From Bacteroidales bacterium (lineage in GTDB: Bacteria > Bacteroidota > Bacteroidia > Bacteroidales > JAADGE01): 32,173 nucleotides of DNA. Shown in pieces: positions 8,634 to 29,602 of this stretch. Within the stretch, counting starts at the first letter, position 1. The number at the start of each line of letters is the position of its first letter. Location: positions 1-32,173 of the forward strand of contig JAOZMB010000025.1 of NCBI GenBank assembly GCA_029934515.1, written 5' to 3'. Made by a program: the position numbers and the translations under genes. The notes beneath the pieces are model-generated. The model was not told the origin of the DNA and did no database searches. It saw nothing but the letters and a program-made list of their open reading frames with translations.

Positions 8634-10157
8634 ATGAAAAAAAAATATATCTGGTTTCTGACAGCCGTAATGACAATTACTATGATTTGGTTAATAATTG
8701 TTCAGGCAAGATGGATAAAAAACGCATTAATAGTTAAGGAACAACAGTTTAGCCAAACAGTGAACAAAGCTCTATTTCAGATTGTAAACAAAATAGAAGA
8801 AAGAGAAACAGTTATGCAAATATCAAACGAAACTGTAACATTTAGCACAGACAGCTCAGAGCTAAAAAAAGCGAAAATGTTCTTTGATGAAAATTATTTT
8901 AACCAAATTGATACAAATAAATACAACAAAAAAAATATTTATTTCATAAACAATGATTCAATTATTTATGAAATAGATAATAACAAAAAAGATACATTAA
9001 AATCTTATAATAAATATTCAAGAAAAGAACTGAGAGATAAAATTATAAAAAAAATAGATAAAAAAACTGTCTTTGTTCAGAACATTATTAATAAATTAAT
9101 GATGAAAGAGATAAAAATCGAAGAACGAATAGATAAAGAAAATATTAGATATATAATTGATAAACAATTTAAACTAAATGATATTATTATTCCGTTTGAG
9201 TTCGGAGTAAAAGATGCAAATAATGAATATTATATAAAATCGAAAAAATTCAGCTTGGATTATATAAACAAAACATACGAAACATTGCTTTTCCCCAGCG
9301 ATGTTTTGATTTCACAAAATTATCTGGTAGTATATTTTGGTAAAGATAAAAGTTATATGAGAGAAAAAATGCCACAAACAATTGTAATTTCAATTCTATT
9401 AACAATAATTATAAGCCTTACTTTTTCGTTTACAGTATATATAATTTATAGGCAAAGAAAATTATCAGAGCTAAAAAACGACTTTATCAGCAACATGACA
9501 CACGAGCTTAAAACACCAGTCTCAACAATATCATTGGCATCGCAAATGCTCAAAGATAGTAGTTTAAATCTTAACAGAAAAAGTATTATAAACATATCAA
9601 AAATAATAGACGATGAAAGTAAAAGACTTGGATTTCAGATTGAAAAAGTTTTGCAAACATCAATATTCGAAAGAGGCGGAATACATCTGAAATATACTGA
9701 GGTCGATTTACATGAATTAATTTCAATTGCCGTGCTAAATATGAACCTAAAAGTACAAAGCAAAGGAGGAAGTATTGAAACATTTCTCGAAGCAGAAAAT
9801 TCAATTATAAAACTCGACGATATGCACTTTACAAATGTTATATTTAATTTGCTTGACAATGCTGTAAAATATTCAAAAGAAGAAATACCGCCGAGAATTA
9901 AAATTTATACAAAAAAATTACAAAACGATTTACAAATTAAAATCTCTGATAACGGAATAGGTATTTCAAAAGAAAACCAGAAAAAAATATTTAATAAATT
10001 TTATCGTGTTCAAAGAGGAAATATACATAATGTTAAAGGTTTTGGACTTGGACTTAGCTATGTTAAGAGAATTATTGACGAGCATAAGGGAAGTATTAAA
10101 ATTAAAAGCGAACTTGGAAAAGGTACAACTTTTATGATTAATTTGATTGTTAAATAG
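8634..10157 (+). CDS. Membrane sensor histidine kinase (RprX-like)
   Basis: The 507-aa kinase has an N-terminal membrane helix (about 5-25), a periplasmic sensor of about 220 lysine-rich residues without a recognised fold, and a second membrane helix (about 247-270). A HisKA domain follows, with the phosphorylated histidine in FISNMTHELKTP (H290). The HATPase domain has the N box NVIFNLLDNAVKYS, G1 box SDNGIGIS and G2 box GFGLGLSY. It autophosphorylates and passes phosphate to the response regulator encoded 68 bp downstream. The layout resembles Bacteroides RprX; the signal is unknown. Proximity to hypA and the hydrogenase makes a regulatory link possible but unproven. Confidence 0.92.
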   Translation: MKKKYIWFLTAVMTITMIWLIIVQARWIKNALIVKEQQFSQTVNKALFQIVNKIEERETVMQISNETVTFSTDSSELKKAKMFFDENYFNQIDTNKYNKKNIYFINNDSIIYEIDNNKKDTLKSYNKYSRKELRDKIIKKIDKKTVFVQNIINKLMMKEIKIEERIDKENIRYIIDKQFKLNDIIIPFEFGVKDANNEYYIKSKKFSLDYINKTYETLLFPSDVLISQNYLVVYFGKDKSYMREKMPQTIVISILLTIIISLTFSFTVYIIYRQRKLSELKNDFISNMTHELKTPVSTISLASQMLKDSSLNLNRKSIINISKIIDDESKRLGFQIEKVLQTSIFERGGIHLKYTEVDLHELISIAVLNMNLKVQSKGGSIETFLEAENSIIKLDDMHFTNVIFNLLDNAVKYSKEEIPPRIKIYTKKLQNDLQIKISDNGIGISKENQKKIFNKFYRVQRGNIHNVKGFGLGLSYVKRIIDEHKGSIKIKSELGKGTTFMINLIVK

Positions 10158-10225
10158 TGTTAAAGTTACTATGTTTTGAAATTTTTTGATTTATTAATTA
10201 TAAAATCATAAAAAATTAAATAAAA

Positions 10226-10915
10226 ATGGATAAAATTAGAGTTTTACTTGCCGAAGATGATTTAAATCTTGGTTCTTTATTAGAACAATATTTAAATGCA
10301 AAAGGATATGAAACAGATTTATATACAGATGGAATAAAAGCAAATAAAGGTTTTATGACAAAGAAATATGACATATGTTTACTTGATGTTATGATGCCAA
10401 AAAAGGACGGTTTCGAACTCGCAAAAGATATAAAAGCTGTTGATAATCAAATACCTATAATTTTTTTAACTGCAAAAACTTTGAAAGAAGACGTGCTGGA
10501 AGGATTTAAAATCGGGGCAGACGATTATCTTACAAAACCATTTAATATGGAAGAACTGCTTTTTAGAATTGAAGCTGTTATGAGAAGAACAAACAATAAA
10601 GTTGTAAAAATAAAAGATATTCACAAAATTGGAAAATTTACATTCGATACAAAAAAACAACTACTAATAGACGAAAAAAAAACAGTTAAACTTACAACCA
10701 AAGAATCAGAATTACTAAAATTACTTTGTGAAAATATGAACAGTATGTTGGAAAGAAATTTTGCTTTAAAGAAAATCTGGAGAGACGATAACTATTTTAA
10801 CGCAAGAAGTATGGACGTATATATAACAAGACTTAGAAAACACCTGAAAACAGACGAGCTTGTTCAAATTATGAACGTACACGGAAAAGGATATAAACTT
10901 ATAATTTCGGATTAA
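10226..10915 (+). CDS. OmpR-family response regulator (RprY-like)
   Basis: The 229-aa protein has an N-terminal receiver domain (acidic pair in LAEDDLN, phospho-acceptor D54 in LLDVMMP, K104 in YLTKPF) and a C-terminal winged-helix DNA-binding domain ending RSMDVYITRLRKHL...VHGKGYKLI. It pairs with the kinase gene just upstream. The gene order kinase then regulator and the overall similarity to RprY are typical of Bacteroidota. Targets cannot be told from the sequence. Confidence 0.94.
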   Translation: MDKIRVLLAEDDLNLGSLLEQYLNAKGYETDLYTDGIKANKGFMTKKYDICLLDVMMPKKDGFELAKDIKAVDNQIPIIFLTAKTLKEDVLEGFKIGADDYLTKPFNMEELLFRIEAVMRRTNNKVVKIKDIHKIGKFTFDTKKQLLIDEKKTVKLTTKESELLKLLCENMNSMLERNFALKKIWRDDNYFNARSMDVYITRLRKHLKTDELVQIMNVHGKGYKLIISD

Positions 10916-11680: not shown

Positions 11681-12784
11681 ATGGATAAGACTTATTATGA
11701 GAATATAATTCAGAAAGGATACACAAGAAGACAGTTCTTAAAATACGCTACTTACATGACTGCGTTTATGGGACTAAAATTCAGTGCAGTCGGTCAGGTT
11801 GTAGAGGCATTGGAGACGAAAAAAAGAATTCCTGTTATATGGGAACATTTTCAGGAATGCACAGGATGCTCAGAGTCATTTATCCGCTCAGACCATCCAC
11901 TTGTTGCAGATATAATCTTAGATAAAATATCTTTGGATTATACTGATACATTAATGGCTGCATCTGGACATAATGCTGAGGCAGCAAAACAAAAGTCGAT
12001 GAAGGAAAACTATGGCAAGTATATTTTAATAGTGGAAGGAGCAATACCAATGAAAGACAATGGAATATACTGCACAATCGCTGGACGAACAGCAATAGAA
12101 ATCCTTAAAGAATCGGCAGCAGGAGCAGCAGCAATAATTACATTTGGCAGTTGCTCGGCATGGGGCGGAGTGCAGGCAGCACACCCAAACCCAACAGGTG
12201 CAGTACCTGTAGACGAAATAATTAAAGATAAACCAATTATTAAAGTGCCAGGATGTCCACCTATCTCAGAAGTAATGACTGGTGTAGTGTTACATTATGC
12301 TACTTTCGGTACTATACCAAAGTTAGATTCAGATGGCAGACCAAAACAATTTTACGGTAAAAGAGTTCACGATAGTTGTTACAGAAGAGCTAATTTCGAT
12401 GCAGGATTGTTTGCAGAAAGTTTCGACAGCGAAGAAGCTAAAAACGGACATTGTTTGTACAAATTAGGTTGTCGAGGCCCCATTTCTTATAATGCCTGCG
12501 GAACAATGGAATGGAACAATGGAGTTAGTTTTCCTATAAAATCTGGTTACCCATGTATTGGTTGTAGCGAAAACGATTTTTGGGATAATAGCCCTTTTTA
12601 CGAGCAGTTAGAAAATATACCTGGAGCAGGAATCGGAACAACAGCAGATAAAATAGGAAAAGTCGTACTGGGAACAGCCGTTGCAGGAACTGTTGTACAC
12701 GCTTTGGCTACAAATATAGCCAAAAGAAAAGAGCTGAAAGAAGCTGAAAGTTTTGGCGAGAAAAATAAAAATAATATTAAATAA
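11681..12784 (+). CDS. [NiFe] hydrogenase small subunit, Tat-exported
   Basis: The 367-aa subunit carries the iron-sulfur relay of a membrane-bound uptake hydrogenase. It has a twin-arginine signal (TRRQFLKY, R16-R17). The proximal-cluster motif is ECTGCSESF (C60, C63), with C158 in GSCSAWGG and a further cysteine in PGCPP. The distal cluster has HDSC and CLYKLGC, and the medial cluster CNACGTMEW and CIGCSENDFWD. A C-terminal membrane helix (VVLGTAVAGTVVHALATN) would anchor it and contact cytochrome b. Gly62 and Gly163 replace the two extra cysteines of oxygen-tolerant enzymes, so the proximal cluster should be a standard [4Fe-4S]. Uptake of H2 in the periplasm is the likely role. Confidence 0.96.
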   Translation: MDKTYYENIIQKGYTRRQFLKYATYMTAFMGLKFSAVGQVVEALETKKRIPVIWEHFQECTGCSESFIRSDHPLVADIILDKISLDYTDTLMAASGHNAEAAKQKSMKENYGKYILIVEGAIPMKDNGIYCTIAGRTAIEILKESAAGAAAIITFGSCSAWGGVQAAHPNPTGAVPVDEIIKDKPIIKVPGCPPISEVMTGVVLHYATFGTIPKLDSDGRPKQFYGKRVHDSCYRRANFDAGLFAESFDSEEAKNGHCLYKLGCRGPISYNACGTMEWNNGVSFPIKSGYPCIGCSENDFWDNSPFYEQLENIPGAGIGTTADKIGKVVLGTAVAGTVVHALATNIAKRKELKEAESFGEKNKNNIK

Positions 12785-12797
12785 TAAAAATTGTACC

Positions 12798-14534
12798 ATG
12801 GCAAACAGAATAGTAATAGACCCAATTACCAGAATAGAAGGACATTTACGAATTGAGGCTGAAATAGAAAACGGAAAAGTTGTAAATGCTTACAGTTCCT
12901 CTACAATGATAAGAGGTATGGAAAAAATAGTGGAAGGAAGAGACCCTAGAGATGTTTGGGCGTTTGTTCAGCGTACATGTGGAGTTTGTACGACAGTACA
13001 CGCAATTGCATCTGTCAGGTCTGTAGAGGATGCGCTTGGCATTGTAATACCTCCGAATGCAGAAATAGCAAGGAATCTTCTTACAACAGCTCACGCAATA
13101 CAAGACCATGTAGTTCACTTTTATCATCTGCACGCACTTGACTGGGTGGATGTTACAAAAGTATTGTCGGCAGACCCAAAAGCTACATCTGAATTAGCAC
13201 AAAGTATTTCGAAATGGCATAAAAGCTCGCCTGGATATTTTTCTGATGTAAAAAAGAGAATTAAAAAATTTGTGGAAAGCGGTCAGCTTGGTATTTTTGC
13301 AAACGGATACTGGGGACATTCGGCAATGAAATTGCCACCAGAGGTAAACCTTTTGGCTGTGGCACACTATCTTGAGGCACTTGAATGGCAAAAAGAAATA
13401 GTAAAAGTACATACAATTCTCGGTGGAAAGAATCCACATCCGCATTTTCTTGTAGGTGGTATGGCAAGCGCAATAAACCTTGACGATGCAGGTGGACTAA
13501 ATACAGAAAGACTCGCATACGTAGGAAAATTGTTAAAAGATGCTCACAAATTTGTAAACGAAGTTTATATTCCAGATTTATTGGCAATAGCTTCGTTCTA
13601 CAAAGACTGGGGAGCGATAGGCAATAATAAATTTAATAATTATCTTTCATTTGGTGATTTGCCAACTGATAATTATCGCAATCCATCAAGTTTTAAATGG
13701 CCTCAAGGTGTTATTCTTGATGGAGATTTGAGTAAAGTACATCCTGTAGATTTGACAAAAACAGATGAAATAAAGGAGTTTATAAATAAATCTTGGTACA
13801 ATTATGCTGGAGGAAAAACAAAAGGATTGCACCCTTGGGAAGGAGAAACAGATATTAATTATACTGGACCAAAACCGCCGTTTACTGAACTTGATGTTAA
13901 TAAAGAATATAGCTTCCTTAAAACACCGCGTTGGCAAGGAAAACCTATGGAAGTCGGCCCTTTGTCGAGAATGTTGATAGGATACGCAAAAGGAATTCCA
14001 GAGTATAAAGAAATTGTTGATTTTGCACTAAAAACACTTGATGTTCCTGTTTCGGCATTGCTTTCAACTTTGGGAAGGACAGCAGCAAGAGGATTGGAAT
14101 CGAAATTGTTGGCTGATTGGAGTCTCGAATTTTATGACAAACTTATTAGCAATATAAAAAACGGAGATACCAGAATGGCAAGCACTGAAAAATGGGATCC
14201 TGCAACATGGGAAAAAACATCAAAAGGTGTTGGTTACATGGAAGCACCACGCGGTGGTTTGGCACATTGGATTGTAATAAAAGACGGTAAAACAGCTAAT
14301 TATCAAATGGTCGTACCGACAACATGGAACGCATCTCCGCGTGACCCAGAAGGACAGATGTCGGCTTACGAATCATCGTTAATCGGAACACCTATAGCAG
14401 ACCCTGAGAATCCACTTGAAATTCTAAGAACTATACATTCATTCGACCCTTGTTTGGCTTGTGCCGTACACTTATACGATGAACACGGTAAAAATATTAG
14501 TCAAATTCAAACTGGCGGAGTTTGTGGTATTTAA
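12798..14534 (+). CDS. [NiFe] hydrogenase large subunit
   Basis: The 578-aa subunit holds the NiFe active site. The nickel ligands are in the N-terminal RTCGVCT (C61, C64) and the C-terminal DPCLACAVH (C552, C555, ending at H558). The 20 residues after H558 (559-578) should be removed by a maturation endopeptidase, which is not in this window. I chose the ATG at 12798 because it gives the family N-terminus MANRIVIDPITRIEGH; the same frame is open upstream to 12753, but that would overlap the small-subunit gene and add an unlikely basic extension. It follows the small subunit by 13 bp. Confidence 0.97.
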   Translation: MANRIVIDPITRIEGHLRIEAEIENGKVVNAYSSSTMIRGMEKIVEGRDPRDVWAFVQRTCGVCTTVHAIASVRSVEDALGIVIPPNAEIARNLLTTAHAIQDHVVHFYHLHALDWVDVTKVLSADPKATSELAQSISKWHKSSPGYFSDVKKRIKKFVESGQLGIFANGYWGHSAMKLPPEVNLLAVAHYLEALEWQKEIVKVHTILGGKNPHPHFLVGGMASAINLDDAGGLNTERLAYVGKLLKDAHKFVNEVYIPDLLAIASFYKDWGAIGNNKFNNYLSFGDLPTDNYRNPSSFKWPQGVILDGDLSKVHPVDLTKTDEIKEFINKSWYNYAGGKTKGLHPWEGETDINYTGPKPPFTELDVNKEYSFLKTPRWQGKPMEVGPLSRMLIGYAKGIPEYKEIVDFALKTLDVPVSALLSTLGRTAARGLESKLLADWSLEFYDKLISNIKNGDTRMASTEKWDPATWEKTSKGVGYMEAPRGGLAHWIVIKDGKTANYQMVVPTTWNASPRDPEGQMSAYESSLIGTPIADPENPLEILRTIHSFDPCLACAVHLYDEHGKNISQIQTGGVCGI

Positions 14535-14569
14535 GCAAATAAAAAATAATAATTCAAATCAATTTTGTA

Positions 14570-15334
14570 ATGGAAACTAGAACTTATAATTATAAAAGAG
14601 TTTATGTATGGGAACTTCCAGTGAGATTATTTCATTGGACTATGGCTTTGTGTGTACTTATTCTTATCGCAACTGGCTTTGTTATTGCCAATCCGCCTGC
14701 AATTAGCAGTAATGCTGAAGCTATAAATTCGTCTTGGTTCGGATTTATAAGAACAGTTCATTTTGCAACAGCTTTCGTTCTAATTGCAGCATTATTTTTC
14801 AGGGTTTACTGGGCATTTGCAGGAAATAAATTTGCACACTGGAGTAATTTTATTCCTTATACAAAAAAAGGACTAAAAAATATATTATATGTGTTAAGAG
14901 TCGATGTATTTTTGATGAAAGATAAGAAACACAAACTGTCAAATATAAGTATAGGACACAATTATTTGGCTGCATTTTCGTATTTTTTAGTGTTTTTAAT
15001 TCTTATATTTCAAATTTTTTCGGGACTTGCCTTATATGCAGATAGCTCATCGTGGTGGCTGCCAAGAATGTTTCATTTTATGTTGTCTATGCTGGGAGGT
15101 GATATTGTTGTCAGATATTTTCACAATATAATGACTTGGTTATTTATGGCTTTTATTGTTGTTCATGTGTATCTGGTATTGTACCACGACTACGTGGAAG
15201 CAAGAGGAGAAACATCTGCAATGATTAGCGGTTTTAAATTTATTAGAGCTGAAAGAATAAAAGAAACAGAAGATAAAATTATAGAAGAAACAACAGAACA
15301 AATGTGGGACGGAAATAAAGAAAAAGATAATTAG
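14570..15334 (+). CDS. Ni/Fe-hydrogenase b-type cytochrome subunit
   Basis: The 254-aa integral membrane protein belongs to the HyaC/HydC cytochrome b family, which passes electrons from the small subunit to quinone. It starts with the family signature YVWELPVRLFHW, with likely haem-ligand histidines in LFHW, VHFATAF and in the last helix (VVHVYLVLYHDY). Four membrane helices are apparent: about 20-40, 62-84, 130-155 and 180-207. A charged C-terminal tail with many Glu and Lys follows. It comes 35 bp after the large subunit and completes a standard small-large-cytochrome operon. Confidence 0.94.
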   Translation: METRTYNYKRVYVWELPVRLFHWTMALCVLILIATGFVIANPPAISSNAEAINSSWFGFIRTVHFATAFVLIAALFFRVYWAFAGNKFAHWSNFIPYTKKGLKNILYVLRVDVFLMKDKKHKLSNISIGHNYLAAFSYFLVFLILIFQIFSGLALYADSSSWWLPRMFHFMLSMLGGDIVVRYFHNIMTWLFMAFIVVHVYLVLYHDYVEARGETSAMISGFKFIRAERIKETEDKIIEETTEQMWDGNKEKDN

Positions 15335-18430: not shown

Positions 18431-21400
18431 TCAAATTTTTACAGCTATTACTGTTATATCATCTCTTTGGTTTTCATTTTTTTGATAATTTTCTAATTCT
18501 TTAATCAACAGATTTTGTTGTTCTGCGATAGTTTTTTTTGCATTTTTTAATAAAATTTTCAGAAATCGTTTTGTCCCCAAACGTTTGCGTAAATAATTAT
18601 TTTGGTCTATTAGTCCGTCTGAAGTCAAGAAAATTATATCACCCTGTTCTAATAAAATTTCTTTTTTAGTAAAATTATATTTCTTTTTTCGCGAGCTACT
18701 ACCTCCGATGAACTGTCTATCTCCTTTTATAATTTTTATCTCATTTTCATCTTTTTTATATATAAACAAATGACGTTTAGCACCCGAAAAAATAACATTA
18801 CAATTGCCGTTTTTATATTTATCTAATCTGCACATACAAATATCCATTCCATCGTTGTTATCTGTTTCGTCTTGTTTTAGAGCTTTAATAACTTTTAAGT
18901 TTAACAAATCCAAAATTTTATTTGGCTCTTTGACCTTTTTTTCGGTTACAATTTCGTTTAACAAACGGTTACCTATAAGAGACATAAATGCTCCTGGAAC
19001 TCCGTGTCCTGTGCAATCAATTGCTGCAATAAGACACGATTTTACGTTGTTATTTTCTTTTATTTTTTCAACTGGAACGAACCAATAAAAATCACCTGAA
19101 ACAATATCTTTTGGTCTAAATAAAATAAAACATTCAAAAAAATCTTCTATATGCTCCTTCCTTGGAAGTATAGCTTCTTGGATAGTTTTGGCATAACGAA
19201 TACTTCCAAGTGTATGTTCTCGTTCACGATTTAAAGCATAATTTGTGTCAGATAAAATATCTGATTGTTGTTGTATTTCTTCCTGTTTTTCTTCTAATTC
19301 TACTGTTAGTTCTTGTAAAAAATTTGCCTGTTTTTCTATTTCTACATTTTGTTCTATTAGTTCTGTAGTTCTTTCTTTTACTTGTTTTTTTAAAATTTGT
19401 TTTTGTTTTTTCAAACTGTTCATTCTAATTCTATAGAACAAAAATATACAAAATATAATAACAATAATACCTAATGCACGGAACCATAATGTTTTCCAAA
19501 TTGGAGGTAAAATTCTAATTTTAACTTCAACAGATTTATCACTCCATATACCGTCGCTGTTACTTGCCATTACTCTAAATATATAATCGCCAGGGTCGAG
19601 GTTTGTATAAGTTGCAAATCTTCGGTCTGCCGAAATTGGTATCCAATCATCGTTAAAATTTTCAAGTATATATTTATATTGATTTAATTCAGGAGACGAG
19701 AAATGGAGATACGAAAATTCAAATGCAAAGATATAATCTTCGTGAGTTATCTCAATAAAATCAGTATAATCGATAGCTTTTTTCAATATCGAGTTCTTAT
19801 TTACAGGCACGTCTTCGTTCATAATTTGAAAATTTGTAATCACAACAGGAGCTTTATATGGATTATCTTTAATATCTTCTGGAAAAAAAGCATTAAAACC
19901 GTTTGTTCCACCAAAAAATATTTCACCTGTTTCATCATTAAAAAAATAAGAACCTCCATTAAATTGATTACCTTGCAAACCGTCTTTTGTGTTATAACTT
20001 TTGAAAACCTCTGTTTCTGGATTAAAAACAGACAATCCTCTGTTTGTACTGAGCCAGATATTTTGATTTTTATCTTGCAAAACGCCCCATATACCATTGT
20101 TTGGCAAGCCGTTTTTTTCAGTATAAAAAGTAAAAGTTTTAGTTTTTTGATTATATTTATTAAGTCCACCACCGTTTGTTCCAATCCAAACAATATTATC
20201 TTTATCCACAAAAACCGACCATACGTAATTTTGATTTAGCGAATTAATATTTTCTTTATCATTAAGAAATTGTGTAAATTTTTCTGTCTTTGTATCAAAC
20301 CGATTTAGACCATTTGCTGTTCCTATCCACAAATTACCGTTCCTGTCTTCTGTAATTTTTCTAATTCTATTATCACTAATTGTTGTTGAATCTTGTGGGT
20401 TATTAAGAAAAACATCAAATTTTACATCGTCTGGTTCTTCTCCTGTTTCTGTATTTGCAATAATAAGTTTGTATAAACCATCGTCTGTTCCTACCCATAT
20501 GACTCCAGATTTTATGTATAAACACCTAACTACGTGATGATTAAAATTACGAGTTTTATTTTTTATCAGGTTATAAACTACAAATTTTTTTGTTTTTTTA
20601 TCTAATTTTTGCAGTCCGAATCTTGTTCCTATCCACAGTGTTCGTTTTTCGTCCATACATATAGTATAAACAGCACTTTGTGGGTCTTGAATTGAATATG
20701 GATTATTTTCTTGGTATTTATAATTAATAAGTTTATCCGTTTCTCTGTTCAGACAAGTTAATCCGTTCCTTGCTGTTCCTATCCAAATATTGTTTTCTTT
20801 ATTGTCTTCAAAAATTGAAGTAACAATTTCCATTACTTCATATTTTTGTTTTGCAGATGGCAAATAAGCTTTGAATTTTTCTTTTTTAGGGTCGTATTTA
20901 TTTAATCCAGAGTTCCATGTTCCCATCCAGATTATTCCAAATTTATCTTCTAATATAGATGTAACATTATGGTCGCTTAATGATGTCGGTTTATTATTGT
21001 TTCTTGTATAATTTATAAATGTATCTCTTTCTGGGACATATTTATTTACTCCCATTCCCCATGAGCCAAACCATATATCACCTTTTTTATCTTGTAATAT
21101 TGATTTAACATTATACTCTTGTTTGAGTCCGAAGTCTGTTGAATGATAATTTACAAAATGTCCGACTCTGTCTGTTTTGTTGTTCATTTTGGAGATTCCG
21201 TTTTCTGTTCCAACCCATAAATTATGTTCTCTGTCTTCGTAAATTGCTCTCACAAAATTGTAAACTAAGCTGTGTTTATTTTTTTTATCTTCTGTAAGGA
21301 AGTGTACAAATTTTTGTGTCTTTGGGTCTATTGCAGCCAAACCTTTACCGTGTGTACCTATCCAGATTAAACCTTTGTGGTCTTGAAAAATAGAGCGTAC

Positions 21401-21940
21401 AATATTATTAGGAAGAGAATTTTTCTTATTTTCATCGTTAAAAAAACGAGTAAAAGTTTGTGTTTTTTTATCAAATTTGTTTAAACCGTTTCTTGTACCA
21501 ATCCAAATATCGTTGTTATTGTCCTGAATTAAAGAATAAACCCAATTATTGCTTAATGTATTCGGATTTTTTTCATCGCTATAAAATCTTTTAAATACTT
21601 TTGTTTTCGGATTGAAACGATTTAACCCGTTTCTCGTAGCTATCCAAATATATCCTTCTTTATCTTGTAAAAGTACTGTTATCCAACTCGAACTGAGACT
21701 GTTATCATTTCCAATTTCATTTTTATAAACTTCAAAGTTGTAGGCATCATATTTATTTACTCCATCAGCAGTTCCTATCCACAAGAACCCCATAGAATCC
21801 TGCATCATACAGGTAACAACATTTTGCGAGAGTCCTTCTTCGGAAGTAAAATGTTCAAATTTTAATTCTTTTTCCTGAGCCACACAACTTATTATATTTA
21901 AAAAAAATATTGAAAGAAATATTATAATATTTTTTTTCAT
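18431..21940 (-). CDS. Beta-propeller sensor with SpoIIE-type phosphatase output
   Basis: The 1169-aa protein has a signal peptide (1-21), about 13 to 14 Reg_prop repeats of the form IWIGT..GLNKFD...F (about 30-670) that should form two beta-propellers, a Y_Y_Y domain (about 710-790, ending GDYIFRVMASNSDG), one membrane helix (LWFRALGIIVIIFCIFLFYR) and a long coiled coil. The C-terminus is a SpoIIE/PP2C-like phosphatase: SGDFYWF, AAIDCTGHGVPGAFMS, DGMDICMC, FLTSDGLIDQ and RDDITVIAV, with the metal-binding aspartates intact. The periplasmic part looks like that of Bacteroides hybrid two-component systems, but the output is a phosphatase. It lies 62 bp downstream of another SpoIIE-type gene. 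Confidence 0.92.
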   Translation of the reverse strand: MKKNIIIFLSIFFLNIISCVAQEKELKFEHFTSEEGLSQNVVTCMMQDSMGFLWIGTADGVNKYDAYNFEVYKNEIGNDNSLSSSWITVLLQDKEGYIWIATRNGLNRFNPKTKVFKRFYSDEKNPNTLSNNWVYSLIQDNNNDIWIGTRNGLNKFDKKTQTFTRFFNDENKKNSLPNNIVRSIFQDHKGLIWIGTHGKGLAAIDPKTQKFVHFLTEDKKNKHSLVYNFVRAIYEDREHNLWVGTENGISKMNNKTDRVGHFVNYHSTDFGLKQEYNVKSILQDKKGDIWFGSWGMGVNKYVPERDTFINYTRNNNKPTSLSDHNVTSILEDKFGIIWMGTWNSGLNKYDPKKEKFKAYLPSAKQKYEVMEIVTSIFEDNKENNIWIGTARNGLTCLNRETDKLINYKYQENNPYSIQDPQSAVYTICMDEKRTLWIGTRFGLQKLDKKTKKFVVYNLIKNKTRNFNHHVVRCLYIKSGVIWVGTDDGLYKLIIANTETGEEPDDVKFDVFLNNPQDSTTISDNRIRKITEDRNGNLWIGTANGLNRFDTKTEKFTQFLNDKENINSLNQNYVWSVFVDKDNIVWIGTNGGGLNKYNQKTKTFTFYTEKNGLPNNGIWGVLQDKNQNIWLSTNRGLSVFNPETEVFKSYNTKDGLQGNQFNGGSYFFNDETGEIFFGGTNGFNAFFPEDIKDNPYKAPVVITNFQIMNEDVPVNKNSILKKAIDYTDFIEITHEDYIFAFEFSYLHFSSPELNQYKYILENFNDDWIPISADRRFATYTNLDPGDYIFRVMASNSDGIWSDKSVEVKIRILPPIWKTLWFRALGIIVIIFCIFLFYRIRMNSLKKQKQILKKQVKERTTELIEQNVEIEKQANFLQELTVELEEKQEEIQQQSDILSDTNYALNREREHTLGSIRYAKTIQEAILPRKEHIEDFFECFILFRPKDIVSGDFYWFVPVEKIKENNNVKSCLIAAIDCTGHGVPGAFMSLIGNRLLNEIVTEKKVKEPNKILDLLNLKVIKALKQDETDNNDGMDICMCRLDKYKNGNCNVIFSGAKRHLFIYKKDENEIKIIKGDRQFIGGSSSRKKKYNFTKKEILLEQGDIIFLTSDGLIDQNNYLRKRLGTKRFLKILLKNAKKTIAEQQNLLIKELENYQKNENQRDDITVIAVKI

Positions 21941-22002
21941 TGCTTTGATTTTCGCTAATTTTAGAACTCATTATTTGAAAAGAAAAAATTAAAATCCATT
22001 AA

Positions 22003-23952
22003 TTATATTTGAGTCTTTATTTCATTATCTTTAAATTTCATCCCAAAAATAAGAATATCATCAGTTTGGTCATTTTTACCTTTCCATTTCATAAAAATGT
22101 TATTAAGTTTATTTTCTTGTTCGTCCATGTTCAAATTATGAATATTAAGTAATAGTTTCTTAAAATTCTTTGACATAAATTTTTTATTTTTAATCTCTCC
22201 AAATTGGTCTTGGAAACCGTCTGAAAATATATATATTATATCATTATTTTGTAATTTAATTTTGTTATTATTAAATTTTTTTTCTTTTGGATAAAAACCT
22301 ATCGGATTTCTGGTTGCTTTATATTCAATTAATTCTTTGTTTCTTATAATTATTAACGGATTGTATGCGCCTGCATACTGCAATAAATTTGTTTCCATAT
22401 CAATGCTGCATAGCGCAATATCAAGTCCGTTTTTATTATTTGAACCAAATTCTTTAAATGTTTTTTTGAAACGCTGTCTTAATACTTCCAATGCTCTTGC
22501 TGGATTATTTATATTTTTATTTTTTATTATTTCATGTAAATATGTTATTCCGAGCATTGTAAGGAATCCGCCGGGTACTCCATGCCCTGTGCAATCTGCA
22601 ACTGCAAAAATTAGATGTTTATCAATTTTGTTGATATAATAAAAATCGCCGCTTACTTTTTCTTTTGGTTTGTTAAATATAAGATATTCGTTTAAGTAGT
22701 TATCAATTAATTTTTTGCTTGTTAAAAGAGCATCTTGTATTGTTTGTGCATAATTTATACTGTCTGTTATATTTTTGTGAGCTTCTTCGATTTCTTGTTT
22801 TTGTATTCTTAATAATTTTTCTTTTTCTTTTGCTTCTGTTAGGTCTATTACAACTACATGCAATGCCGTTGTGTTTTCATATGGAATTGCTGTTAGCCAT
22901 ATTTCTGCTGGAAATTCTGTATTATCAGAACGTTTGTGTGTCCACTCAAATTTATAAAAACCTTTTTTTAATGCTATTTCAATATTTTTTTGTGCTTTTG
23001 TTTCAGATAATTGTCCGTCTTGTTGATATTTCGGCGAAAGCATTAAAGGTGAAATTTCTGATTGTTTATTTTTTATATCAAAAAGTATTTCAGCGGCTTT
23101 GTTATATACAGTAAATATTCTGTTTTGTAAAATTAATGTAGCATTTCTACTTTTTTCAAAAAGAGTTCTATATTTTTTTTCGCTTATTTTTACTATTTCT
23201 TCTGCTCTTTTTCGTTCTGTAATATCGCGCAATATTCCCTCTACGCCTGTTATGTTTCCTTCTTTGTCGAATATTAAATGAGAATTTGTTTCAAAATTAA
23301 CTGCTGTATTGTCTTTGTTTTTAATTAGTATTTCATAATTTTTAATTTTGCCACCATTTTTTTTTAGTGCTTCTAATAATTTTACTCTGTCTTCTGGATT
23401 ATAATAAAATATTTCAGGAACATTTTTGCCTATTATTTCATCGACGGTTTTTGCATTTGTATAGTTCAATGCCGATGGGCTAACAAGTGTTAGTTCCTGT
23501 TTAATATTTGTTCTATAAAATATGTCGTCCATATTTGTAAGTACAGCTTTGTATCTTTCTTCGCTTTGTATGATTTCCTTATTTTGATTTTTAATTTTTG
23601 TACTTTGTGTAATTATTTCTTCTTTTTGTTCTTCTAATTCAATATTTCTTTGGTCGATTTCTATATTTTGAGCAAATAATTTTTGATTTAAAATATTTTG
23701 TTGTTTTACATATATATCAAGTTTGTTATTTGTATTTAATAGGTCTTTATTTTTTTCTTCAATTTCTTTTACCATCGAGTTCAAAAGATACCGAGTTTTT
23801 GTTGTTGTTGTTTTTATGCTTGATATTTTAAACTCTGCTTTCACAAATTGTTTATCAATTTTCTTTATTATTTTATAGAGTTCATCTTTTTGATATGTTT
23901 TAATATCAAGTATATCAATTTTTTCTTTTAGTGTTTGTAATATTTTTTCCAT
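22003..23952 (-). CDS. PAS-domain SpoIIE-family protein phosphatase
   Basis: This soluble 649-aa protein has an N-terminal helical region with a coiled coil (about 50-130), a first PAS domain with PAC tail (131-250, ending EGILRDITERKRAEE), a second PAS domain (256-378, ending VVVIDLTEAKEKEK), a short coil, and a SpoIIE phosphatase domain (about 425-645: VSGDFYYI, AVADCTGHGVPGGF, NGLDIALCSID, IFSDGFQDQFG, QTDDILIFGM). The metal-binding aspartates are present, so it should dephosphorylate serine/threonine, typically on an anti-sigma-factor antagonist. No such substrate gene is nearby. It begins 9 bp after the FIST gene and is almost surely cotranscribed with it. Confidence 0.92.
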   Translation of the reverse strand: MEKILQTLKEKIDILDIKTYQKDELYKIIKKIDKQFVKAEFKISSIKTTTTKTRYLLNSMVKEIEEKNKDLLNTNNKLDIYVKQQNILNQKLFAQNIEIDQRNIELEEQKEEIITQSTKIKNQNKEIIQSEERYKAVLTNMDDIFYRTNIKQELTLVSPSALNYTNAKTVDEIIGKNVPEIFYYNPEDRVKLLEALKKNGGKIKNYEILIKNKDNTAVNFETNSHLIFDKEGNITGVEGILRDITERKRAEEIVKISEKKYRTLFEKSRNATLILQNRIFTVYNKAAEILFDIKNKQSEISPLMLSPKYQQDGQLSETKAQKNIEIALKKGFYKFEWTHKRSDNTEFPAEIWLTAIPYENTTALHVVVIDLTEAKEKEKLLRIQKQEIEEAHKNITDSINYAQTIQDALLTSKKLIDNYLNEYLIFNKPKEKVSGDFYYINKIDKHLIFAVADCTGHGVPGGFLTMLGITYLHEIIKNKNINNPARALEVLRQRFKKTFKEFGSNNKNGLDIALCSIDMETNLLQYAGAYNPLIIIRNKELIEYKATRNPIGFYPKEKKFNNNKIKLQNNDIIYIFSDGFQDQFGEIKNKKFMSKNFKKLLLNIHNLNMDEQENKLNNIFMKWKGKNDQTDDILIFGMKFKDNEIKTQI

Positions 23953-23961
23953 TTTGATTTT

Positions 23962-25086
23962 TTAAACTTCTTTTAATAAGACAAGTGAACATGTTTCATT
24001 ATGAAAATCTGATTTTTGATTTTTAGCATTTCCTATTTCACCGTAAGTAAAAAATCCAATAAGTGGTGCGTTCCAGATTTCATGAATACCTTCAATTTCG
24101 TCTTCCATCATAGGACCGAAAGCTACTTTTCTTCCTTTACATGAGAACATTATCATTGCGTCTGTTTCTGGTACTTCTGTTTTAAACTCTTTAATTTCGG
24201 CAATTGTTTTATCAATAATTTCAAAAGTTGCCTGAGTTGTAAATTTTACTTTTGCACCTTGTTCGATACGTCCTGTGAGTGTTATTGAGCCGTCTTCTGA
24301 ATTTCCAGAAACGGGTGTTCTTAGTACAGGAGTTTTATTTTCATAATTTACTTGTAATGGATATTTTGCGCCTATTGATAATCCTATCGGTTCTGTTGAA
24401 TTTTCTAAACCGTAGTATTTCAAGAACATATCCAATGCTGGTTTGTCGTCTATTGTATAAATTGTATTTCTTTTTGCTTTTGTTATTATTTTTTCTGAGC
24501 CGACAGCCTCCCATCCGCTTGTTGCAATACCTTTTACTTCTATTTTATTATTATCCAATATTAGAAATATAACTCCTTCATCTATTATTTTTTTATTTGT
24601 AAAAATGGTAGTTTTTTCCATTTTTATGTCGCTTGCCATTCCTCCGAATATTTGATTTCTTGATTTAATAACTTCTGATATTCCTTCAATAACAGATACT
24701 CCATCTGTTGCAAGTGATGATGTCAATACAATAAATGCAGGGTTTTCAAATTTCTTTTTTGCATATTTAGCTGCATTTTCACTTATTTGTGCAGTGTTGT
24801 TATTTTGTGTTTCTTGATAATATAGAGTAAAATATTCCTCTTTTATATCAAACAACATTACAACTATTGAATGTTCTAATACTTCATCGTTCATAATTTC
24901 TGCACCTGTTCCTGAGCCAAAAATTTTGATATTATGTTTATCAAAAATTTCGCTTACTTTCTGCAAATTATGACTTACAGAAGCAAAAACAATAGCCAAA
25001 TTATGATTAAAATTGCTATTTACTATACTATCAACTTTTGTGTTGAGTTCTTCTACTGAGTTACTTTGTATTGTTATAACTTTCAT
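23962..25086 (-). CDS. FIST-domain sensory protein
   Basis: The 374-aa protein has an N-terminal FIST domain (about 15-190; typical stretches KIFGSGTGAEI and NQIFGGMASD) and a C-terminal FIST_C domain (about 210-355; PLQVNYE and MIMFSCKGRKVAFG). FIST domains are cytoplasmic ligand-sensing modules usually linked to signal-transduction outputs; small ligands such as amino acids have been proposed. No membrane segment or output domain is present, so the signal must pass to another protein. The gene sits directly upstream of two SpoIIE phosphatases, the nearer only 9 bp away, which suggests the PAS-SpoIIE protein as its partner. Confidence 0.88.
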   Translation of the reverse strand: MKVITIQSNSVEELNTKVDSIVNSNFNHNLAIVFASVSHNLQKVSEIFDKHNIKIFGSGTGAEIMNDEVLEHSIVVMLFDIKEEYFTLYYQETQNNNTAQISENAAKYAKKKFENPAFIVLTSSLATDGVSVIEGISEVIKSRNQIFGGMASDIKMEKTTIFTNKKIIDEGVIFLILDNNKIEVKGIATSGWEAVGSEKIITKAKRNTIYTIDDKPALDMFLKYYGLENSTEPIGLSIGAKYPLQVNYENKTPVLRTPVSGNSEDGSITLTGRIEQGAKVKFTTQATFEIIDKTIAEIKEFKTEVPETDAMIMFSCKGRKVAFGPMMEDEIEGIHEIWNAPLIGFFTYGEIGNAKNQKSDFHNETCSLVLLKEV

Positions 25087-25105: not shown

Positions 25106-25163
25106 AAAAAATCAGCGAACAATTTAACTTATTAAAATTGTTAAATTCGGTAAATTGTTCGCT
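25106..25163 (-). terminator. Rho-independent terminator of the ABC permease transcript
   Basis: On the minus strand a 13-bp stem (AGCGAACAATTTA with TAAATTGTTCGCT; arms 25151-25163 and 25114-25126) is followed by GATTTTTT. It separates the permease gene from the FIST gene. Inside the loop GTTAAATT (25140-25147) could instead pair with AATTTAAC (25121-25128). Confidence 0.8.
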
Positions 25164-28471: not shown

Positions 28472-29602
28472 TCAGCATTGAATAAATTTCATAAACTCAT
28501 TTTTATTTTGAACTGGATTTTTTTTAGGTCTCGATAAATTCTTCCTTGCTCCTTTTTTGACTTTTATTTCCAACAAAACAGGACCTTCTGTATTTATTAT
28601 TTTTTTAATATTATTTTTAAGGTCTAATTTTTTTTCAATAGAAAAGGCATTTTTATAATTCATCGATTTAGCTAATAATACAAAATCAATATTTCCAGCT
28701 ACAGTAGGTTGTCCACCAACAGAATCGTGTGCTTGGTTGTTAAATATTATATGTATATAATTTTTGGGATAAAGACTTCCTGTAATTGCCAAAGCGCCAG
28801 TGTGCATAATTAAAGAACCATCTCCATCGAGACAAAAAATTCTTTTTTTAGTTTTTTTTATGGCTATAGCAAGTGCTGTCTGTCCAGCATGTCCCATGGA
28901 GCCGACCATAAGAAAATCGCTGGAATGACTTTGCTGTAACTCGTCTCTATATTCATACAATTCTCGTGAAATTTTCCCTGTTGTTGCGATAACAATATCA
29001 TTTGATTGTAAATTATTAATTACCATTTTTATTGCTTCTTCTCGTTCCAAATCATATTCATTTTTTTGTATATTTTTCTTTAATGAATATTTTTCAAAAG
29101 TATCTTTTCTTACAACTAAAGCATAAGGAGTTTTATTTATTTTAGCAAACATTATAGCTTTTTCAATTATAGATTTAGCCTTTTCGAAATCATTAGGCAA
29201 AATATCATAACAAATATCTGATGCCTCCAAAAGTTTAAGAGTTACAGCTCCCTGTTTGATATGTTGTGGTTCGTCTTTTGTTCCTGGTTCGCCGCGCCAA
29301 CCAATCAAAAGCAAAATAGGAATAGAATATACCTCTACGGCTGCTAATGAAAGTAACGGATTTATGCTATTGCCGAGTCCAGAGTTTTGCATATATACCA
29401 AAGATATTTCGCTAGTTGCCAAATAGTTACCTGCCGCAAGCGCCACCGCTCCTCCTTCATTTGCAGAAATAATATGTTTGTTTTTTGTTGTATTGTCCGT
29501 TATATATGCACAAATATCTTTAAGCAAAGAATCTGGAACTCCAGTAAAAAAATCAATTCCATTATCTCGCAAAAGTTCAAAAAAATAAGCTGGTTTTATC
29601 AT
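28472..29602 (-). CDS. Phosphonopyruvate decarboxylase
   Basis: This 376-aa thiamin-diphosphate enzyme should convert phosphonopyruvate to phosphonoacetaldehyde, the irreversible second step of phosphonate biosynthesis. The N-terminal pyrimidine-binding part has E49 in ANEGGAVALAAG and MQNSGLGNSINP. The C-terminal part has the diphosphate motif GDGS (260-263) to NN (288-289) and the signature AHDSVGGQPT (291-300). Sulfopyruvate decarboxylase is a related alternative but is less likely given that signature. The usual partner PEP mutase and an aminotransferase are not next to it. It starts 3 bp after the PAP2 gene, so the two are cotranscribed. Confidence 0.9.
   Translation of the reverse strand: MIKPAYFFELLRDNGIDFFTGVPDSLLKDICAYITDNTTKNKHIISANEGGAVALAAGNYLATSEISLVYMQNSGLGNSINPLLSLAAVEVYSIPILLLIGWRGEPGTKDEPQHIKQGAVTLKLLEASDICYDILPNDFEKAKSIIEKAIMFAKINKTPYALVVRKDTFEKYSLKKNIQKNEYDLEREEAIKMVINNLQSNDIVIATTGKISRELYEYRDELQQSHSSDFLMVGSMGHAGQTALAIAIKKTKKRIFCLDGDGSLIMHTGALAITGSLYPKNYIHIIFNNQAHDSVGGQPTVAGNIDFVLLAKSMNYKNAFSIEKKLDLKNNIKKIINTEGPVLLEIKVKKGARKNLSRPKKNPVQNKNEFMKFIQC

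Follow-up and report, generated by a model that had tools for sequence, protein, structure and literature searches.

FIST proteins are known as sensors that regulate kinases and cyclic di-GMP (c-di-GMP) enzymes, and a FIST gene followed directly by two genes for SpoIIE-type phosphatases raises the question of what such a sensor controls and on which substrate its output acts. This gene group lies in a 32,173-nucleotide stretch of Bacteroidales DNA (the window, which is contig G000:C41 of a 3.34-Mb genome in 201 contigs). The first-pass annotation had described a FIST protein, a PAS-PAS-SpoIIE protein and a propeller-Y_Y_Y-SpoIIE protein, in that order and separated by 9 and 62 bp, and open reading frame calls together with Pfam searches bear this out. 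All three genes are on the minus strand. The FIST protein (23962..25086, 374 amino acids) carries a FIST N and a FIST_C domain, whilst the PAS-PAS-SpoIIE protein (22003..23952, 649 amino acids) scores 57.3 bits for PAS_9, 43.2 for PAS and 74.1 for SpoIIE, all above curated cut-offs, its second PAS domain being weak (PAS_8, 22.4 bits against a cut-off of 21.8). The propeller protein (18431..21940, 1169 amino acids) has, by eye, a signal-like N-terminus and one transmembrane-like stretch, and scores above curated cut-offs for Reg_prop (212.8 bits over 8 stretches), Y_Y_Y (64.3) and SpoIIE (73.9). We favour, with moderate confidence, a reading in which the FIST protein gates a Ser/Thr phosphatase of SiaA type whose substrate is a SiaC protein encoded elsewhere in the genome, with the propeller protein adding a periplasmic input; the earlier interpretation of the locus as a whole is thereby partly supported.

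As judged from sequence comparison, both catalytic domains are of the SiaA kind and not of the SpoIIE/RsbU kind. The SpoIIE/PP2C domain of the PAS protein (22033..22623) has the SiaA-PP2C structure 6k4e as its best PDB match at E 6e-25, the runner-up being 20 orders of magnitude away at 2e-4, and that of the propeller protein (18437..19033) matches 6k4e at E 2e-27, its sole PDB match at E up to 0.01; no SpoIIE or RsbU structure matched either domain within that limit. The metal-site Asp motifs GDFY, DC.GHG, DG and DDI of the window domains align with SiaA. The whole proteins, which match through the C-terminal part, reach 163.9 and 167.4 bits against a SiaA equivalog cut-off of 700, and so they are best called SiaA-type rather than SiaA. 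For the PAS protein, the catalytic domain shares 75% identity over 282 amino acids with that of an in-genome paralogue (L078, membrane-type by eye). In a tree of 27 domains, which includes some but not all of the SpoIIE genes of this genome, these two form a supported pair, and the window domains do not group as sisters. It looks as though a resident SiaA-type domain has been joined to a new N-terminal half by domain shuffling. Tandem duplication of the window domains was rejected, as they are 33% identical and each is closer to another gene in the same genome.

A SiaA-kind output makes a SiaC protein the likely substrate, in preference to an ordinary STAS anti-sigma antagonist. In Pseudomonas aeruginosa, SiaA and SiaB are reported to act on T68 of SiaC (PMC7647112), and SiaC to activate the cyclase SiaD (PMC8457831). 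Profile searches of the window's genome returned 12 SiaC, 10 DUF6272 (SiaB-like) and 29 SpoIIE matches, the last amounting to about 25 genes given that 8 of the matches are halves of 4 genes, and SpoIIE, DUF6272 and SiaC genes stand in a row on another contig, C137. SiaB-like and SiaC genes are therefore present in the genome, although not in the same operon as the FIST gene. All 12 SiaC proteins carry Thr (8) or Ser (4) in a motif aligned to the phosphosite region of SiaC from P. aeruginosa, where we read the aligned Thr as T68 from the chain numbering and PMC7647112. When 40 relatives are compared, SpoIIE matches rise and fall in number with SiaC (rho 0.89) and SiaB (0.86) more closely than with STAS (0.41) or genome size (0.42), and there are 0-1 SpoIIE matches in the 10 genomes without SiaC compared with 4-65 in the 30 genomes with it. 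The first-pass annotation had entertained an anti-sigma antagonist as the target and advised looking for STAS or histidine protein kinase (HPK)-like anti-sigma genes elsewhere in the genome. That search gave 2 STAS matches, both in small genes, and 3 matches to PF13581 (anti-sigma HPK), none above its cut-off, other models of such kinases not having been searched. With SiaA-kind domains and 12 SiaC proteins in the genome, SiaC is the likelier target, and an ordinary SpoIIE-STAS-sigma output was set aside.

Variants of these proteins were also seen. DUF6272 and SiaC share one open frame of about 510-524 amino acids at L076:7299-8828 and at G000:C105, and DUF6272 matches in frames of 507-545 amino acids recur among relatives. 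A 379-amino-acid protein at L036:4045-5184 has two DUF6272 stretches, and relatives hold several frames of about 365-420 amino acids with two DUF6272 matches, as if two SiaB-like units had been joined. One 5.7-Mb genome (G036) has a very large SiaABC-like stock, with 65 SpoIIE, 20 SiaC and 17 DUF6272 matches.

The partnership between FIST and phosphatase can be set against FIST loci more widely. The searches found FIST in 7 of 60 relatives, in 37 of 393 genomes at the level of the order and in 89 of 395 at that of the phylum. We read 41 regions from relatives and order (40 regions taken from 43 places in the order, plus G017 from the relatives, with the partial match G365:C4 excluded), 76 from the phylum (excluding 18 places in 17 genomes of genus g266, with five g266 genomes kept), the window, and 79 named loci, which came to 192 distinct loci after five duplicates (L215, L216, L233, L237 and L239) were dropped. 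Because the named loci were chosen for their closeness to the window FIST, the combined sets are not a random sample. Outputs were classed by profiles built for this analysis, with Pfam applied to only part of the neighbours. Within 300 bp of FIST, taking both sides, a kinase is chained to it at 151 loci, a SpoIIE protein at 6 and neither at 35, some of which lie at contig ends; counting downstream of FIST only, there are 146 kinases, 2 kinase fusions, 5 SpoIIE proteins, 1 SpoIIE fusion and 38 loci with neither. Pfam found HisKA in 22 of 30 FIST-near proteins, the exceptions including a TPR protein (L023), a peptidase (L027) and two PAS-only pieces (L047 and L048). The annotation's remark that FIST proteins are usually paired with kinases thus holds, and its FIST-SpoIIE link goes beyond a single adjacency, being found at six loci, once as a fusion, with the three-gene layout appearing again in L148. 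The six are the window, L036 (the FIST-SpoIIE fusion), L148, L151, L207 (an Ignavibacterium metagenome-assembled genome, MAG) and L212 (a Cytophagales MAG). L036 may be decayed or misassembled, since there is a stop inside the FIST part of its fusion; DUF6272 and SiaC genes lie 2.4 and 3.5 kb downstream of it on the same strand, with opposite-strand open reading frames between. As a separate observation, runs of four to six FIST genes precede a kinase or SpoIIE gene at L139, L142, L144, L188, L190, L207 and L211, giving several sensors per output.

Trees of the FIST proteins and of the phosphatases indicate that the change from kinase to phosphatase happened more than once. In a FIST tree of 138 rows, flagged for long branches (L036 among them), the SpoIIE label requires 5 changes, of which at least 4 are forced by well-supported branches; in a second tree of 91 rows, drawn from part of the named loci and without L036, it requires 8, all forced, with L148 counted twice and L207 four times. 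The window FIST is sister to that of L212 with support of 94/85, just short of the star given by the tool, and the L212 FIST likewise precedes a SiaA-type phosphatase (6k4e, E 5e-26). The L036 phosphatase is also SiaA-type (6k4e, E 7e-32), whereas that of L148 is nearer to the Rv1364c, RsbU-like and SpoIIE structures and belongs to the SpoIIE/RsbU kind. The phosphatase tree accordingly holds two kinds, one SiaA-like (window, L036 and L212) and the other a single clade of L148, L151 and L207, from which it follows that the switch happened at least twice; more than two switches are likely. Six independent switches were rejected because the L148, L151 and L207 domains form one clade and may go back to a single origin, FIST genes having been exchanged afterwards.

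The proteins encoded directly after FIST tend to start with a segment of about 60 residues that is helical by look. In a first test, a profile built only from kinase partners matched 66 of 85 FIST partners, largely rows from which it had been built, and 0 of 598 true controls at E < 1e-3, three further matching 'controls' having turned out to lie directly downstream of FIST. A larger kinase-only profile also found the segment in SpoIIE partners, at E 7e-28 in L207, 1e-24 in L148, 2e-11 in L151 and 2e-9 in L212. In the window phosphatase the corresponding stretch (amino acids 21-69; 23746..23892) is a weak profile match. Its score exceeds those of 2000 out of 2000 shuffles of its own letters and of all 19 SpoIIE proteins lacking a FIST partnership (17 of which gave a score). 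Apart from two kinases that do so only after bias correction (see below), the controls that score above it (L136, L179, L234 and L242) are all downstream of FIST. Taken together, these comparisons offer strong support for the segment as a property of the class and weak support for its presence in the window protein.

The window FIST belongs clearly to its family (PF08495, 112.8 bits against a cut-off of 23.2; PF10442, 80.7 against 28.5). Its identification as NosP was rejected, the score of 63.7 bits for NF041558 being far under the cut-off of 450, so that haem and nitric oxide (NO) are not implied for this protein; a sequence search of the PDB returned no solved relative at E up to 1. Any action on the phosphatase would be modelled on that of FIST/NosP proteins on histidine kinases. 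PMC12570481 describes haem-bound NosP binding its kinase and inhibiting autophosphorylation, and the review PMC8846402 describes NO-bound NosP of another species activating its kinase, so the sign of control varies. By this analogy, the three genes would form one transcription unit, and the soluble FIST protein would alter the activity of the PAS-PAS-SpoIIE protein encoded next to it by binding to the N-terminal helical segment of that protein. The SiaA-kind phosphatase would then remove phosphate from Ser or Thr of at least one SiaC-family protein encoded elsewhere, in opposition to SiaB-like kinases, and the freed SiaC may go on to bind its target. The propeller-Y_Y_Y-SpoIIE protein would bring a second, periplasmic input onto the same kind of output.

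The place of this third gene is helped by L148, where FIST is followed 1 bp later by a 323-amino-acid SpoIIE protein and this, after a further 76 bp, by a 1211-amino-acid propeller-Y_Y_Y-SpoIIE protein, which is the window layout with a different kind of phosphatase. With kinases as outputs, the same order of FIST, small output and large propeller-Y_Y_Y output occurs in L140, L149 and L156, and other large kinases occupy the third-gene place in L146 and L032. At 53 distinct loci at least two output genes lie within 300 bp; the outputs are all kinases at 50 of these loci, all SpoIIE proteins at 3 and mixed at none. Zero mixing was reached in 0 of 100,000 label shuffles, but these ignore the differing SpoIIE stock between genomes and so the uniformity of output type is suggestive only.

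Several results weigh against the reading that we favour, and they need to be considered alongside the competing accounts of the locus. The window PAS-PAS-SpoIIE protein gave E 0.67 in the first-test profile, and with the larger profile its 34.4 bits raw fall to 9.4 after bias correction (E 0.058 at Z=1000), at which point, and only then, two kinases encoded upstream of FIST (L106 and L107) outscore it. The 75%-identical L078 paralogue showed no FIST partner, so the PAS-protein domain may act on the same substrate as that paralogue independently of FIST. The annotation had proposed checking conservation of the three-gene order, and this is not one inherited cluster: FIST is missing in 19 of the 21 family genomes searched, and the link is thus not one of long standing there. 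Inheritance of the three-gene set within the family was discarded accordingly, as the only other FIST-bearing member (L053) has FIST followed by a kinase. One may then suppose that FIST merely landed beside two of about 25 SpoIIE genes, and the SpoIIE-rich genome, the rarity of FIST in the family and the weak N-terminal match would all suit such a chance or loose neighbourhood. We nonetheless think this improbable, given the 9-bp gap between FIST and phosphatase, the recurrence of FIST-SpoIIE pairs at 6 of 192 loci (one fused), the SiaA-type phosphatase with N-terminal segment that follows the nearest FIST relative in L212, and the repeat of the layout in L148. A chance estimate, which is not a test and assumes about 25 SpoIIE genes among some 2,700 (estimated from 3.34 Mb), places a SpoIIE gene next downstream of a given FIST gene about 1% of the time, with two in a row far rarer.

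Other doubts concern the substrate and the third gene. No SiaB or SiaC gene was found among the window proteins scanned, and within the 21 family members the SpoIIE number goes with genome size (rho 0.79) and STAS (0.66) before SiaC (0.58) and SiaB (0.32). STAS proteins are established targets of SpoIIE domains, and FIST could control the PAS-SpoIIE protein with a STAS antagonist of the RsbV/SpoIIAA kind and a sigma factor as the target; the two small STAS genes, the SpoIIE/RsbU kind of the FIST-linked L148 phosphatase and the somewhat better tracking of STAS within the family are in keeping with this. It seems very unlikely to us when SiaA-PP2C is a far closer match to the window domains than any SpoIIE/RsbU structure is, PF13581 has no match above cut-off, and SpoIIE number tracks SiaC more than STAS over the 40 relatives. 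A stronger competitor, which we still regard as unlikely, keeps the cooperation between FIST and the PAS-SpoIIE protein and treats the propeller-SpoIIE gene as an independent neighbour. At E up to 1e-100, 15 of 40 genomes have relatives of the propeller protein and 13 of them lack a FIST match, so the third gene may indeed be independent; among those 15 genomes there was no clear orthologue, the best reaching 46% identity over part of its length. The 62-bp gap is also in line with independence, as are the single-FIST loci nearest the window, where the profiles showed no third output gene adjoining the pair (the L212 contig ends soon after its phosphatase gene). If limits of 500 to 1500 bp are used, one mixed locus appears (L144, with a receiver-SpoIIE gene 395 bp after a kinase). 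Set against independence are the layouts of L148 and, with kinases, of L140, L149 and L156, together with the lack of mixed outputs within 300 bp at the 53 loci. On balance we retain the account in which FIST gates a SiaA-type phosphatase with the propeller protein as a second input.

A broader proposal, which we put forward tentatively as possible but rather short of probable, is that the FIST proteins of Bacteroidota and neighbouring groups bind a portable N-terminal docking segment that has been moved in evolution among histidine kinases and phosphatases of both the SpoIIE/RsbU and the SiaA type. A single family of sensors could then drive either His-Asp or Ser/Thr partner-switch signalling, and the operons would tie the soluble FIST partner and the periplasmic propeller protein to a common output, with both inputs converging on one substrate. 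The mixed outputs of L144 under the wider limit count somewhat against this proposal.

The surroundings of the three genes give some indication of where the group begins. A long hairpin followed by a T run (25114..25163, minus strand, z -5.3) lies in the 129-bp gap 5' of FIST and is the probable terminator of the upstream ABC-permease gene, so FIST is probably the first gene of the group; no such hairpin is present in the 62-bp gap between the second and third genes (z +0.6). A promoter scan was uninformative, with 30 sites against a shuffle mean of 41.6 and thus fewer than in shuffles. Past the propeller-SpoIIE gene, at 100 bp, comes a carboxypeptidase gene with a type IX secretion system (T9SS) sorting tail. 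Elsewhere in the window are small and large [NiFe] hydrogenase subunits with a b-type cytochrome (11681-15334), a CobW/HypB-like gene (685-1491), a histidine kinase and response regulator (8634-10915), and a phosphonopyruvate decarboxylase (28472-29602; TIGR03297, 472.9 bits against a cut-off of 312.5) adjoined by PAP2 and calcineurin-like phosphatase genes, a neighbourhood in which phosphonate metabolism is possible.

In the open-licence literature we found no paper that combines 'FIST domain' with SpoIIE, no title linking FIST to a phosphatase output in searches of FIST with PP2C or NosP, and nothing on DUF6272 or on DUF1987 with Bacteroidetes, which is not proof of absence. A FIST input to a SiaABC-type partner switch would bring together a known sensor and a known output in a pairing that we did not find described, and points to a sensor that can feed two very different kinds of signalling chemistry. 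Bacteroidota are known to have propeller-Y_Y_Y kinases of the hybrid two-component type, and the window propeller protein has the Reg_prop and Y_Y_Y sensor part in common with them, with a SpoIIE output in place of the kinase and regulator domains. The SpoIIE/RsbU phosphatases that act on SpoIIAA/RsbV in anti-sigma control are alike in belonging to the SpoIIE-type PP2C family PF07228, but the window domains match none of their structures at E up to 0.01, and in the genome STAS matches are few and none for PF13581 passes its cut-off.

The closest parallels are found in two other systems. In the NosP/FIST pairs with NahK or NosK, as described in PMC12570481 and PMC8846402, a soluble FIST protein is encoded next to the output protein it regulates, as in the window; the output there is a histidine kinase rather than a Ser/Thr phosphatase, and the window FIST falls under the NosP model cut-off. 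The SiaABC(D) threonine partner switch of P. aeruginosa (PMC7647112) has in common the SiaA-kind catalytic domains and the SiaB-like and SiaC genes of the window's genome, including one SpoIIE-SiaB-SiaC run. The window differs from it in its inputs, with a separate FIST protein and PAS domains as well as a propeller, in an operon that lacks SiaB and SiaC, and in a genome with 12 SiaC and about 25 SpoIIE genes where P. aeruginosa has one set. If our reading is correct, then the link from FIST to phosphatase joins FIST sensors to partner switching, the docking segment becomes a defined element for testing or re-use, and SiaC proteins would be indicated as substrates for the many SpoIIE phosphatases of these Bacteroidota, for which no other target readily suggests itself.

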